NCBI GenBank assembly: GCA_947460385.1
Contig: CANHGT010000009.1
Span: forward strand, 1 to 32,534
Direction: 5' to 3'
DNA: 32,534 nt
Source: Alphaproteobacteria bacterium
Lineage (GTDB): Bacteria > Pseudomonadota > Alphaproteobacteria > WRAU01 > Hepatincolaceae
This document shows, piece by piece, positions 15,614-21,012 of the stretch. The notes beneath the pieces are model-generated. The model was not told the DNA's origin and made no database searches. It worked only from the letters and a program-made list of their open reading frames with translations. The position numbers and the translations under genes are program-made. Positions within the stretch are counted from its first letter, which is position 1. Each line of letters starts with the position of its first letter.

Positions 15614-18193
15614 TTACATATCCTTCTTGGCTTGTAAATGTTGTTTAACAGCTTCTTTTTCATAACACTCAATGATATCTCCAACAATAATATCGTTGTA
15701 TCCATCAAAAGATACACCACATTCAAAACTATGCTTCACTTCTTTTGCATCATCTTTAAAGCGTTTTAATTGCGATAATACACCTGTATATATGATTTTA
15801 TTTTTACGTAAAATTCTTACTAGTGCTGAACGTTTTAGAACTCCATCGGTTACATAACAGCCACCAATATTACCTACTTTACCAACACTAAACACTTCTC
15901 TAATTTCGGCATGCCCTATTACATTTTCAACTATATCAGGATCAAGCAAACCACCCAATGATAGATTAACATCATCTATAAGTTTGTAAATAATAGAGTG
16001 ATATCTAACATCAACTTTGTCGCTCTTAATAAGATTTTTAGCACCAGAATTAGCAGAAACATTAAACCCTAAAACTAAACTATCGCTTACTTGTGCTAAG
16101 TTTACATCAGATTCATTGATTTCTCCAACTGCCGAATGAATTACTTTTACTTCTACATCTTGATAATTTAATTTTTTCAAAGAACCTAAAATAGCTTCAA
16201 GTGAGCCTTGAACATCGGCTTTAATAACTAAAGATAATGTTTTTACTTCAGATATTCCTTGCTTTAAGAAAGAGTCTAAGTCAAAATCGTCTTGCTTTTG
16301 CGATTCGCTTGCTTGGGCTTTTTCTAATCTGTAAGCAACAAGTGCTTGGGCTTTAACCTCATTAGGAACAACTAAAAAATCATCTCCAACATTAATGCCT
16401 GAGCTAAATCCAGATATTTCAACAGGCATAGATGCTCCTGCAATTTTTAATCTTTCATTTTTATCATTAATCATTACTTTTATTTTGCCCATAGTGGTAC
16501 CACAAACAAAAAAATCACCAACTTTTAACTGCCCTCTTTCAATTAAAACAGTAGCTAATACGCCAAAACCTTTTTCATTTCTAAACTCAATAACACTACC
16601 TTTACCCAAAGCTTTATTATTTGTTTTAATATCTAGCATTTCAGCTTGTAATATAATAGTTTCTAAAAGCTGATCTATGCCTATATTTTCTTTAGCTGAT
16701 ATCTCAACGCATAAAATATCTCCGCCCATTTCTTCAACTACTAGATTCTGTTGCAATAACTCTGTTTTTACACGCATAGTATCTTTTTCGGGCTTATCAA
16801 TTTTATTAATAGCTACAATCATTGGAACATTGTAAAATCTAGCATGATTAATAGCTTCAATAGTTTGTGGCTTAATTCCATCATCTGCTGCTACTACTAA
16901 AATTACAATGTCGGTTACTTTAGACCCACGAGAACGAATTTGACTAAAGGCTTCATGACCCGGTGTATCTAAAAAAGTAACAACCTGTCCTTTAGATGTG
17001 GTTATTTGATATGCTCCAATATGCTGGGTAATGCCACCTGCCTCTTTAGCTACAACACTTGTTTTACGCATAGTATCTAACAAAGTTGTTTTACCATGGT
17101 CTACATGGCCCATAATAGTTACAACAGGAGGACGTGCAGTTAAATCGCTTGGAGAATCATTAAAATTATAAAATTCTTCCTCAATGCTTGCTAAATCATT
17201 AATAACTAAAGTGTGTCCTAAATCTCCCATTAGAACATCTACTGTATCTAAATCTAACAAAGTTTCACTATCTGCAGAAATGCCTAATTTTTTCAAAGCT
17301 TTCATTAAAAATATTGATTTTTCAGATAGCCTATGGGCTAAATCTTGCAAGACAATAGGACGAGACAGTTCAATTGTTTTTAATACTTTTTCTCTTCTAA
17401 TATTATTACGCTTATTTTTACGTTTTGTAGGATATACAAACTTTGGAGTTTTTTCAACAACAACATCTTCCACTTCTTCGTCGTCTTGCACAACAACAGA
17501 TGTATCTACATTACGCCAATTAGTTTGCTGGTTACGTTTTTTATCTTGCTCACTTAAAACTTTTTTCTTAGCAGGCTTAACCACTTCATTATCTGTAGCT
17601 CTGCTTGACAGCTTACTTAAAACTAAAGATGATAGATAAGGAGCTTTCTTTTTAACAGATTCTTCTTCTTTTTGATCAACTATAGCATTAATGTTTTCAT
17701 TGTTCTCAACAACAACTTCTGCAATCTCATCAACAGGTATATTGCTTTCGTTAATATTATTGGTATCTATATTTTCTTTAATTACAGACTGAGGAGTTTC
17801 TGAAGAATCTTTAACCACTAAACTTAACTGGGCAACAAAATTCTTTACTTCCTCTGTGTTTTTAGAAGCATTTTCTACAAGTTTGTGTCTAATATCTATT
17901 TCTTCTTGTGTAAGCTTACGCTTACCATCGCTATTAGCTACTACCTGAACTGTTTTATTTGCATCAAGCTTAACATCTTTCTTAGATTCAGGCATAGCAA
18001 CATTAGTAACACGTTGGGTTCCCACAACTTCTACTATTGCTCCTCTTCCTGATCTACCACCAGACTTGACAACCTCTTTATTAATATTTAAATCTTCAAG
18101 AGTAACTTTCCCACCTAAGCTTAATGTTTTTTTAGGCTTCGTGGCTTTAATTGTATCTTCTACATTTTTTTTGTCTTCATTATCCACAAGCAT
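15614..18193 (-). CDS. infB: Translation initiation factor IF-2
   Basis: IF-2 is the GTPase that delivers initiator fMet-tRNA to the 30S subunit and promotes subunit joining. At 859 residues it is near the usual length. The N-terminal 270 residues are low-complexity and charged (K, E, D, V, N) and contain the alphaproteobacterial GGRSGRGAIVEVVGTQRV segment near 43-60. The GTPase core has G1 GHVDHGKTT from 362, GGITQHIGA, G3 DTPGHEAF from 409, and NKID at 463-466, followed by ISAKENIGIDQLLE. Domains II-IV follow (FGVLATVLIERGQ, VKADVQGSLEAI, HAEIREVF). ATG 18193 has AGAGGGG only one base before it. GTG at codon 3 (18187) is better spaced and may be the true start. Confidence 0.97.
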   Translation of the reverse strand: MLVDNEDKKNVEDTIKATKPKKTLSLGGKVTLEDLNINKEVVKSGGRSGRGAIVEVVGTQRVTNVAMPESKKDVKLDANKTVQVVANSDGKRKLTQEEIDIRHKLVENASKNTEEVKNFVAQLSLVVKDSSETPQSVIKENIDTNNINESNIPVDEIAEVVVENNENINAIVDQKEEESVKKKAPYLSSLVLSKLSSRATDNEVVKPAKKKVLSEQDKKRNQQTNWRNVDTSVVVQDDEEVEDVVVEKTPKFVYPTKRKNKRNNIRREKVLKTIELSRPIVLQDLAHRLSEKSIFLMKALKKLGISADSETLLDLDTVDVLMGDLGHTLVINDLASIEEEFYNFNDSPSDLTARPPVVTIMGHVDHGKTTLLDTMRKTSVVAKEAGGITQHIGAYQITTSKGQVVTFLDTPGHEAFSQIRSRGSKVTDIVILVVAADDGIKPQTIEAINHARFYNVPMIVAINKIDKPEKDTMRVKTELLQQNLVVEEMGGDILCVEISAKENIGIDQLLETIILQAEMLDIKTNNKALGKGSVIEFRNEKGFGVLATVLIERGQLKVGDFFVCGTTMGKIKVMINDKNERLKIAGASMPVEISGFSSGINVGDDFLVVPNEVKAQALVAYRLEKAQASESQKQDDFDLDSFLKQGISEVKTLSLVIKADVQGSLEAILGSLKKLNYQDVEVKVIHSAVGEINESDVNLAQVSDSLVLGFNVSANSGAKNLIKSDKVDVRYHSIIYKLIDDVNLSLGGLLDPDIVENVIGHAEIREVFSVGKVGNIGGCYVTDGVLKRSALVRILRKNKIIYTGVLSQLKRFKDDAKEVKHSFECGVSFDGYNDIIVGDIIECYEKEAVKQHLQAKKDM

Positions 18194-18207: not shown

Positions 18208-19719
18208 TTAATCAATATTACGTGCCTTCATTATTAACTCTTCAGCTTCTTTTGTATCAATTAAATCCTTAGGCAACATATCTATTAATTCAAAAATAGA
18301 TAAATCTCCCATATCTTCAATGGTTTTAACCCCATTTTTACCTAAACAAACTAACACTTCATCATTATTAATTAAATTGATAAGTTCTTGTGAAACCCCT
18401 AAGTTAGCAATTTCTTCTTTCATTTTTAATCCTATTTCCTCTATAAATGCTTTCGCACGATCTGTCAACTCTTCAATAATATCATCATTAAAGGCGGCTA
18501 TTGACGACAAAGATCGCCCTTTATCACCTATTATATCTTCTACTGTATTAAACCCTTCAGCCACTAATAATTGCGCTATTACCTCATCTACATCTAATGC
18601 ATTAATTAAATTAGTTGTTTTATCATGAATAGACTTTTGACGCATTTCTTTTTCATCTTCCTCGCTCATAAGATCAATATGCCAACCAACAAGACGTGAA
18701 ATCAAGTTAATATTTTGACCACCCCTGCCAATTGCCATGCTTAAATTATCACTTTTCATTACTACAGAAACAGTTTTCTTATCTTCATAAACAATTATCT
18801 TTAAAACTTCTGACGGATAGAACGCATTAATAACATAATTAGCCACATTGTCGGAATAATGAATTAAATCTATTTTTTCACCCTTAAGCTCGGCCAAGAC
18901 ACCTTGAATACGAGAGCCTTTAAAACCTACGCAGGTACCTATTGCATCTATACTCGGATCTTTAGAAGATACTGCAATTTTAGACCTTGAACCTGGGTCT
19001 CGGGCTATACCGTGGGTAGAAATTACACCTTCATACACTTCAGGAATCTCTTGTTCAAACAACCTTCTAATGAAATTAGGATGAGTTCTTGATAGCATAA
19101 TTTGTTGGGCTTTAGGGTCTCTTTTTACTTCTGTAATTAACGCCCTAACTTTACTACCAACCTCAAAGTATTCTCTTTGAATACAATTATCACGCCTTAA
19201 AAAAGCTTCTGCCTTATTACTTAATTCAACGAACAAATTACCCATTTCAACACGTTTTACAATGCCACTAACTAATTCACCAACTTTATCTTTATAAGCT
19301 TCATACTCTCTTTCTTTCTCTGCCTCTTTAATTTTATGCAAAATACCTTGACGAAAAGATTGTACATAATTACGGTCAAAATCTAGAGGTGGCAAAGTTT
19401 CTCTTAACTCATCACCTAGAACTGCATCGGCTTTTATTCTTTTTGCTTCAAGCACTGTTATTTCTTTATAATGATCTTCTACAACATCAACAACCATTAT
19501 AATTCTTTGAACTAAAATAGCACCCTTAATGCGATTAATAATAACTTCTATATTGTGCAATTCTCCATATTTAACTAAAGCTACCTTTTGCAACGCTGTT
19601 TCCATTGCAACAAAAACCTCTTCAACTAAAATGTTTTTGTCTTTTGCCACATTGTGGATAATATCTATTAAATCTGGTCTAGCTTGTAACTCTAAATAGC
19701 TATCATTATTCTTTAACAT
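18208..19719 (-). CDS. nusA: Transcription termination/antitermination factor NusA
   Basis: NusA binds RNA polymerase and nascent RNA, modulating pausing, termination and antitermination. The 503-residue protein has the N-terminal polymerase-binding domain (about 1-125, IHNVAKDKNILVEEVF, METALQK), an S1 domain (about 130-200, GELVSGIVKRVEMGNLFVEL), KH1 and KH2 (about 230-345, with SRSKIAVSSKDPSIDAIGTC, GFKGSRIQGV, and IGRGGQNINLISRLVGW), then two acidic helical repeats (about 365-500) as in other proteobacteria. ATG at 19719 has GGAG six bases upstream, better than the ATG one codon earlier. It overlaps the end of rimP, so coupling is likely. NusA autoregulates this operon in E. coli, relevant to the leader hairpin at 20246-20272. 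Confidence 0.96.
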   Translation of the reverse strand: MLKNNDSYLELQARPDLIDIIHNVAKDKNILVEEVFVAMETALQKVALVKYGELHNIEVIINRIKGAILVQRIIMVVDVVEDHYKEITVLEAKRIKADAVLGDELRETLPPLDFDRNYVQSFRQGILHKIKEAEKEREYEAYKDKVGELVSGIVKRVEMGNLFVELSNKAEAFLRRDNCIQREYFEVGSKVRALITEVKRDPKAQQIMLSRTHPNFIRRLFEQEIPEVYEGVISTHGIARDPGSRSKIAVSSKDPSIDAIGTCVGFKGSRIQGVLAELKGEKIDLIHYSDNVANYVINAFYPSEVLKIIVYEDKKTVSVVMKSDNLSMAIGRGGQNINLISRLVGWHIDLMSEEDEKEMRQKSIHDKTTNLINALDVDEVIAQLLVAEGFNTVEDIIGDKGRSLSSIAAFNDDIIEELTDRAKAFIEEIGLKMKEEIANLGVSQELINLINNDEVLVCLGKNGVKTIEDMGDLSIFELIDMLPKDLIDTKEAEELIMKARNID

Positions 19720-20215
19720 CATTTACTCCGTTTATATCAAAGTCTTTTAATACATCTAAACTTGCTTTATCTATATCGTTATAATCAATAAAAAGTTGAT
19801 CTTTGTTGCACAAAAATTCAATTCCTTGCTCATTTGCAAGTAACAATTTACCTTGCCATTTTTTTTGATTATTAATTAACTTTTTCGTTGTAATTTTAAT
19901 ATTGTTGCCTTCAAATCTTTTATAATCATCATATTTTAATAAAGGTCTATCTATGCCTGGAGAACCAACAATAATATTATACTCTGTACCAATTAAATCT
20001 TTTTCTTCTATAGGAGTGGCTATCGCCCTACTAAACTTTGCACAATCTTCAACGGTAACAGGAAGGTAAACATTGTTACCTTGAGTATCTGTGGCTAATT
20101 TTTCTAACAAAACGTCTAATTCTTTATTTTTGTAAGTTAATGATACAATCAAATAGCCCAATTCATTAGCAATAGGGCTTACCAAAATCAAAAGTTGACT
20201 TTCTAACTGTGTCAT
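19706..20215 (-). CDS. rimP: Ribosome maturation factor RimP
   Basis: RimP assists 30S maturation around S12. The 169-residue protein shows ANELGYLIVSLTYKNKELDVLLEK, VTVEDCAKFSRAIATPIEEKD and YNIIVGSPGIDRPLLKYDDYKRFEG, the family's 'VSSPGLDRPL....F.RF.G' signature, and a C-terminal SH3-like part. It is the first gene of the rimP-nusA-infB-rbfA-truB-rpsO-pnp operon. The only in-frame ATG fits family length; AGG lies eleven bases upstream, a loose ribosome site. A near-consensus promoter and a terminator-like hairpin precede it. Confidence 0.92.
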   Translation of the reverse strand: MTQLESQLLILVSPIANELGYLIVSLTYKNKELDVLLEKLATDTQGNNVYLPVTVEDCAKFSRAIATPIEEKDLIGTEYNIIVGSPGIDRPLLKYDDYKRFEGNNIKITTKKLINNQKKWQGKLLLANEQGIEFLCNKDQLFIDYNDIDKASLDVLKDFDINGVNDVKE

Positions 20216-20245
20216 ATCATCATAAACCTTGTTTTATTAATGTAT

Positions 20246-20272
20246 AAAAAAAGCGGTAATAAAAACCGCCTT
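20246..20272 (-). terminator. Intrinsic terminator: end of trmB and/or attenuator in the rimP operon leader
   Basis: Read on the minus strand, GCGGT (20269-20265) pairs with ACCGC (20257-20253) around a 7-base loop, with AA/TT extending the stem past one bulged C. Seven T's follow at 20252-20246. It is a G+C-rich stem in an AT-rich region. It lies downstream of the trmB stop (20341) but also downstream of the predicted rimP promoter (20332-20304), so rimP transcripts must pass through it. Confidence 0.8.
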
Positions 20273-20303
20273 ACTGCACAAGATAATTTATATCTACACT
20301 TAT

Positions 20304-20332
20304 ATTATAATATACTTTTAAGTTCCTTGCAA
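20304..20332 (-). promoter_or_regulatory. Sigma70-type promoter for the rimP-nusA-infB operon
   Basis: On the minus strand TTGCAA (20332-20327), a 17-base spacer, then a perfect TATAAT (20309-20304). Predicted initiation is near 20297, giving a leader of about 80 bases to the rimP ATG that includes the intrinsic hairpin. Confidence 0.68.
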
Positions 20333-20340
20333 TCAATTAT

Positions 20341-21012
20341 TCACTTTTTATTTATAAAATCACAATATGTAATTTTGCTATTATTAACCAAGGCTTTTCT
20401 TTCATATTTAGTGGTGATATGACCTACAGGAGCTTGGGTAAAATCTTTTGTATCATTAATATCCCAAATAAAGTCTCCACTACCCAAGATATGTTCTAAT
20501 CCCCACGAAACATAATTATAATGATCGGATACAAAACGCAACTTACCTGAAGGTTTAAGAATTTTATGAAAAATCATTAAATTGTTAGTGTTAATAATTC
20601 TGCGTTTATTGTGTTTACTTTTAGGCCAAGGGTCTGGGAATAAAATAAATATATTGTCAAACATATTTTCATTTAAAGCATCTAAAATATAATGGATATT
20701 ATCATTATATAGCCTTAAGTTTCCTACATTGTTATTATGAATTTTTTCTAATAAATTAGAAACTCCATTTAAAAACACTTCAACCCCTAAATAAAATTTA
20801 TTAGGATTATTGATGACCGATGCAGATAAAAAATCTCCACTACCAAAGCCAATTTCTAAATTAACTTCTTGGTGCGTTTGATTTGCTTTTAATAAAATGT
20901 TGTTAATATCATTAACATCTATCAAGTATTTAGGCAAAACATGATCTAATAAGTTTTGCGACTTTTCGCTTAAATGTGATAGTCTCCTACCATAAAAATT
21001 AATAAAATTCAC
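20341..21012 (-). CDS. trmB: tRNA (guanine-N7)-methyltransferase
   Basis: TrmB makes m7G46 in the tRNA variable loop using AdoMet. The 223-residue protein has the conserved N-terminal FYGRRLSHLSEKSQNLL, the AdoMet loop LEIGFGSGDFL, a second acidic strand FYLGVEVF, the catalytic/tRNA-binding signature FPDPWPKSKHNKRRI, and the late TKYERKAL. The GTG start at 21012 has GGA six bases upstream; a nearby ATG at 21023 is out of frame and closes immediately. A TATAAT (21036-21031, minus strand) lies 19 bases before the start codon without a convincing -35. It follows metK but is separated from it by a terminator. Confidence 0.94.
   Translation of the reverse strand: MNFINFYGRRLSHLSEKSQNLLDHVLPKYLIDVNDINNILLKANQTHQEVNLEIGFGSGDFLSASVINNPNKFYLGVEVFLNGVSNLLEKIHNNNVGNLRLYNDNIHYILDALNENMFDNIFILFPDPWPKSKHNKRRIINTNNLMIFHKILKPSGKLRFVSDHYNYVSWGLEHILGSGDFIWDINDTKDFTQAPVGHITTKYERKALVNNSKITYCDFINKK

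Follow-up and report, generated by a model that had tools for sequence, protein, structure and literature searches.

The leader of the rimP-nusA-infB operon in the stretch analysed here (the whole 32,534-nt sequence, hereafter the window, from a draft alphaproteobacterial genome of 1.09 Mb in 66 contigs) carries a promoter-like site followed by an intrinsic-terminator-like hairpin, and probably constitutes an attenuator in which NusA would stimulate termination in the leader of its own operon. The earlier note on this DNA had taken the layout to be an independent one, which proved to be wrong: it is best regarded as a family-level variant of the rimP-leader (PMC2965389), and occupies the same place in most of the alphaproteobacterial loci examined. 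The kind of switch is thus already known, and it is the usual stem sequence that the window's form has evidently lost.

The rimP leader in the window

Gene order along the minus strand is lnt, a repressor-like gene, metK, trmB, rimP, nusA, infB, rbfA, truB and pnp, with a 93-aa frame sitting between truB and pnp. The upstream gene, trmB (20341-21012; TIGR00091, E = 2.8e-36, over the cut-off), has its stop at 20341, and rimP, the first gene of the operon (19706-20215), starts with the ATG at 20215, so that a 125-base gap containing the promoter-like site and the hairpin is left between them. The rimP product contains the Pfam RimP_N and RimP C-terminal domains, both over cut-off, and matches the NCBIfam RimP models with a best E of 1e-26, below their curated cut-offs. 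It is followed on the same strand by nusA, the proposed source of the regulator (18208-19722; TIGR01953, E = 2e-108), and by infB (15614-18193; TIGR00487, E = 1.7e-206), both over cut-off. A MAG whose record is titled Rickettsia typhi (L057) falls into the window's family, with a NusA 58% identical to that of the window, and its label is probably wrong.

Both parts of the promoter and early terminator that the earlier note had placed in this leader were recovered. The promoter-like site (20304-20332, minus strand) consists of TTGCAA (20332-20327) and TATAAT (20309-20304) with a spacer of 17 bases, and agrees with the consensus at 10 of 12 positions. The terminator-like element (20246-20272, minus strand) is formed by the hairpin AAGGCGGU-UUUUAUU-ACCGCUUU (20272-20250), with eight pairs and a loop of seven, and by a run of seven T's (20252-20246) which partly overlaps the stem and ends about 30 nt before the rimP ATG. 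Transcription is predicted to start near 20297, assuming 7 nt past the -10 element, in which case the terminated RNA would measure about 51-54 nt, a little more than the 45-50 nt expected earlier.

Taken alone, the promoter-like site is not significant, with 88 such sites in the scan vs. 71.4 (sd 9.6) in shuffles. The hairpin is modest in energy (-9.3 kcal/mol vs. a median of -14.7 in 49 relatives from outside the family), and the 83-nt leader folds 1.5 sd better than its shuffles (z = -1.5), which is not unusual. The hairpin is, nevertheless, the single terminator-like site in the 13 kb between 15000 and 28000, vs. 4.4 in shuffles, indicating that this stretch is poorer in such sites than its composition predicts. 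Stronger evidence than promoter score, energy or folding is provided by position. We surveyed 672 kb of the window's genome (34 stretches plus the window), taking as genes the open frames of at least 100 codons and not the annotation. Of the tandem gaps of 60-600 bases, 127 in all, 8 held a sense terminator (a stem of ≥7 pairs, ≥4 of them G-C); terminators on either strand were present in 6 of 30 convergent and in none of 46 divergent gaps. While five of the other seven tandem-gap terminators lie 20-29 nt past the upstream stop, the window hairpin lies 68 nt past the stop of trmB.

The stretch between the predicted start and the hairpin (20280-20298, minus strand) holds a weak AT-only stem, AGATA...TATCT, and neither stepwise folding nor a duplex test yielded an antiterminator in the window leader (duplex z = +1.1). 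Rfam covariance models recognised in the window only a tRNA at 1925-1996, leaving the leader unmatched, and in 14 of the other loci they gave two matches up to E = 1, one of them lying away from the leader (755-813 in L025). A sub-threshold match of STnc390 to the leader hairpin of L031 (26.8 vs. 50 bits) was read as chance. In DNA similarity searches against relatives the whole leader matched itself only, the rest being scattered short matches. At the start of rimP we noted a three-codon frame, ATGATGATATGA (20223-20212, minus strand), the stop of which overlaps the rimP ATG; AAGG at 20230-20227 is 6 nt from the second ATG of this frame and 11 nt from the rimP ATG. L005 and L006 show no such frame where their rimP begins.

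Leaders across Alphaproteobacteria and the family variant

We examined 87 loci (L003-L032, L059-L089 and L090-L115), after dropping L057 and L058, which represent the same places as L004 and L005. By tblastn, rimP was found in 65 of them, or in 61 alphaproteobacterial loci, the window's own included, once four loci from Firmicutes were subtracted, three of which have a hairpin before rimP. A sense terminator within about 250 bases of rimP is present in 45 of the 61 alphaproteobacterial loci, with 1.7 expected from 20 shuffles of each, 5 on the opposite strand, and none in a stretch inside rimP. The 16 loci missed by this criterion include nine with a bulged or more distant hairpin and seven in which the search located none (L022, L026, L028, L091, L094, L097 and L098), although in L098 a hairpin, AAAAGCGG...GCGCTTTTTTTG, is discernible by eye despite the search miss. 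About 100 nt 5′ of rimP, L026 has CTCTTTGAAAATTTGA, which we take to resemble ribosomal boxA. Nearly every leader hairpin is trailed by a T run, and the usual class stem, GTGGGCC...GGCCCAC or GCCCGC followed by the T run (40 sequences), covaries, with 93.8% of cells paired, 7 of 10 pairs changed on both sides and 0 of 500 shuffles as high, although these figures are inflated by the relatedness of the sequences.

TTG-type promoters scoring at least 7 of 12 were found within 110 bases 5′ of the hairpin in 44 of 53 leaders, vs. 11.1 in shuffles, and those scoring at least 9 of 12 in 25 of 53, vs. 2.4 (L021 was left out for too little upstream sequence). Between the hairpin and rimP, a promoter of at least 7 of 12 was seen in 3 of 44 leaders with gaps of at least 40 bases, which is not a like-for-like control, as gap lengths vary and many are under 110 bases. 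In view of this placement, transcription very likely begins 5′ of the terminator, which polymerase must then pass, as had been proposed for rimP transcripts. A conserved ATTCTT/ATCTT word recurs, by eye, close to where some leaders begin. A conserved competing stem, which the earlier note had suggested seeking in relatives, was not found across the 53 leaders (mean duplex z = -0.43, with seven below -2). A frame-length heuristic, applied to 52 leaders, assigned the longest upstream frame clearly to the opposite strand in 6 and clearly to the same strand in 24, with 22 unclear; for the hairpins of the six, a role as the terminator of a preceding gene is unlikely. The promoter-terminator layout before rimP is, as judged by this comparison, ancestral.

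The window's family has four members (the window, L004, L005 and L006), and all keep the promoter, the hairpin, its place and the T run, with promoter scores of 10, 9, 9 and 9 of 12 and with 31, 24, 25 and 24 bases from the end of the -10 element to the hairpin. Their stems differ (GGCGG...CCGC; AGGCGG...CCGTCT; GGGACTGT...ACAGTCC; TGGCAGT...ACTGCCA), and the GTGGGC...GCCCAC signature is missing from all four, so that sequence-specific recognition cannot be conserved in the window hairpin. In L005 a long inverted repeat, ATTCTTTTATCTTTT...AAAAGATAAAAGAAT, which may be a small mobile element, lies in the interval between the hairpin and rimP.

A class model, R1, was built without 14 of the 54 located hairpins, namely the four of the window's family, that of L021, and nine of bulged or irregular shape. 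It gave the window hairpin 14.7 bits (E = 0.72), and in the window's own genome the leader came last of seven R1 matches (E = 4.37), the best of which (G000:C45:7640-7680, E = 0.02, on both strands) lies elsewhere than in the rimP leader. R1 matches at E ≤0.01 occur in 41 of 58 genomes, and the top match is the leader in 27 by hand count, a count which is circular because 26 of the 27 gave a sequence to R1. As a specific marker R1 was rejected: in the rimP-less genomes described below, the nusA leader is among the R1 matches in 14 of 14, but is the top match in only four (G026, G061, G070 and G097).

Hairpins before nusA where rimP is not detected

In genomes of the SAR11 order, taken here as the order of L070 and L073 (the latter labelled Pelagibacteraceae), and of family f24, trmB directly adjoins nusA. 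The RimP_N domain was not found in any of 34 such genomes (37 searched, with three rimP-bearing controls matched), nor was the RimP C-terminal domain in any of 14 (18 searched, with four controls matched). A hairpin with a T run is nevertheless present between trmB and nusA in 32 of 32 loci, vs. 0.07 in shuffles and 2 on the antisense strand (33 loci were taken, and L172 was left out at a contig end). There are 14 distinct stems among these hairpins, mostly of the class type: GGTGGG...CCC(A/G)CC in the SAR11 order and ATGGGC...GCCCAT in f24. The 32 loci represent few events and not 32, as they belong to close relatives. In most of L159-L173 about 10 nt separate the -10 element from the hairpin, and the transcript would almost open with the stem, an unusually short leader for a terminator. 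In the L178-L187 group the hairpin all but abuts the trmB stop, with no convincing promoter ahead of it, which makes the case for an attenuator weaker there. Retention of the hairpin is not universal, since no terminator was found near nusA in six further genomes that yielded no rimP (G020, G011, G027, G057, G022 and G051) or in 11 of the 12 loci L074-L084 and L087.

The presence of the hairpin before nusA without detectable RimP points to nusA as the regulated gene. We tentatively suggest that the “rimP-leader” may really be a nusA autoregulatory element, kept by the SAR11 order and f24 after the loss of rimP, mostly with a stem of the GGTGGG type, while in the window's family the stem would have drifted freely and the promoter, spacing and terminator stayed. 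If so, NusA would need only a modest terminator at the leader position and no specific RNA sequence. The 2010 description left open which protein acts on the rimP-nusA-infB leader, and the rimP-less genomes that keep the hairpin before nusA would separate the two regulators named there, NusA and RimP (PMC2965389); the window's family, with its unconserved stem, poses the question of whether sequence or terminator strength is being sensed. Among the literature titles and abstract openings covered, there was no report of an element kept before nusA without rimP, and a term search of the main text of a 2009 structured-RNA survey in Pelagibacter (PMC2704228) gave no mention of nusA, rimP or trmB.

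Proposed mode of action and known systems

In the proposed mechanism, RNA polymerase would start near 20297 and meet a modest intrinsic terminator after about 50 nt. Were NusA plentiful, it would stimulate termination at the leader hairpin and only the short RNA would be made; were it scarce, polymerase would pass the hairpin and rimP-nusA-infB would be expressed. Such attenuation by NusA would require no antiterminator structure. Mondal et al. (2016) reportedly described autoregulation of B. subtilis NusA by attenuation without an antiterminator. In the leaders compared, the order of promoter and hairpin is conserved, with the hairpin standing between the putative promoter and the gene; that termination actually occurs at the hairpin, and that NusA is the factor involved, we infer. 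The conserved order of promoter, leader, terminator and gene, without a competing stem, fits protein-modulated termination rather than refolding, and NusA feedback is proposed for the window because of the precedents in the NusA operons of B. subtilis and E. coli together with this conserved arrangement. The comparison across leaders lends support to the earlier idea of an attenuator, which we regard as probable, with NusA its likeliest effector.

The same layout might respond to something other than NusA, be it RimP, another RNA-binding protein, NusG, polymerase speed or NTP level. RimP was also named, next to the suggested NusA, as a possible feedback regulator of the rimP-leader (PMC2965389), but a hairpin mostly of the class type persists ahead of nusA in genomes without detectable RimP, which speaks against RimP. 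NusA is the protein playing this role in B. subtilis (PMC12288461), and we consider a different factor unlikely. The hairpin could also stop transcripts of trmB, its immediate upstream neighbour on this strand, and in L178-L187 it is close to the trmB stop. That it can end trmB transcripts, as suggested earlier, is possible, yet this would be a secondary role: the window hairpin is 68 nt from the stop with the promoter-like site lying between, and hairpins are kept in the six leaders with an opposite-strand upstream frame. It is accordingly rather improbable that we are dealing with an ordinary trmB 3′ terminator, read through constantly and without regulation, and with a separate promoter for rimP. 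For the latter, the interval between the hairpin tail and rimP, roughly 30 nt, leaves too little room, and the one site found by scanning it (20248-20219) would start transcription inside rimP. Finally, the near-opening of the RNA with the stem in L159-L173 could suit a 5′ stabiliser or the start of a small RNA instead of a regulated terminator, but the T run after nearly every hairpin would be needless for a protective stem, and this reading is very hard to credit.

NusA-stimulated termination in the leader of its own operon can be compared with three described systems. The rimP-leader of Naville and Gautheret (2010), presented as the most ubiquitous attenuator (PMC2965389), shares with the window an intrinsic terminator in the 5′ leader of rimP-nusA-infB, a distance from terminator to gene of about 30 nt (within the range of 4-130 nt), no visible antiterminator, and NusA as the suggested regulator. 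In contrast, its GGGc(...)gCCC stem motif, present in most other alphaproteobacterial leaders, is lacking in the window, which is filed for this reason as a variant working like the rimP-leader, and in the SAR11 order and f24 the element precedes nusA with rimP undetectable. Our sequence comparison extends the 2010 description by showing the spacing of the predicted promoter across a class. In B. subtilis, NusA is autoregulated via NusA-stimulated termination in its own leader, and is stated to be essential there and in E. coli (PMC12288461); what it has in common with the window is a leader terminator in a NusA operon and the proposed NusA-stimulated termination. B. subtilis belongs to another phylum, however, and its rimP leader is 180 nt (PMC2965389) vs. 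about 80 nt in the window, which is known from its sequence alone and has a conserved promoter-like site upstream of the terminator. In E. coli, expression of NusA represses the operon (as cited in PMC2965389), and the metY-rimP-nusA-infB operon, like that of the window, encodes a termination factor and has terminators, t1 and t2, upstream of rimP (PMC6511841), but it also includes a tRNA gene and several promoters, as opposed to the one compact promoter and one hairpin predicted in the window.
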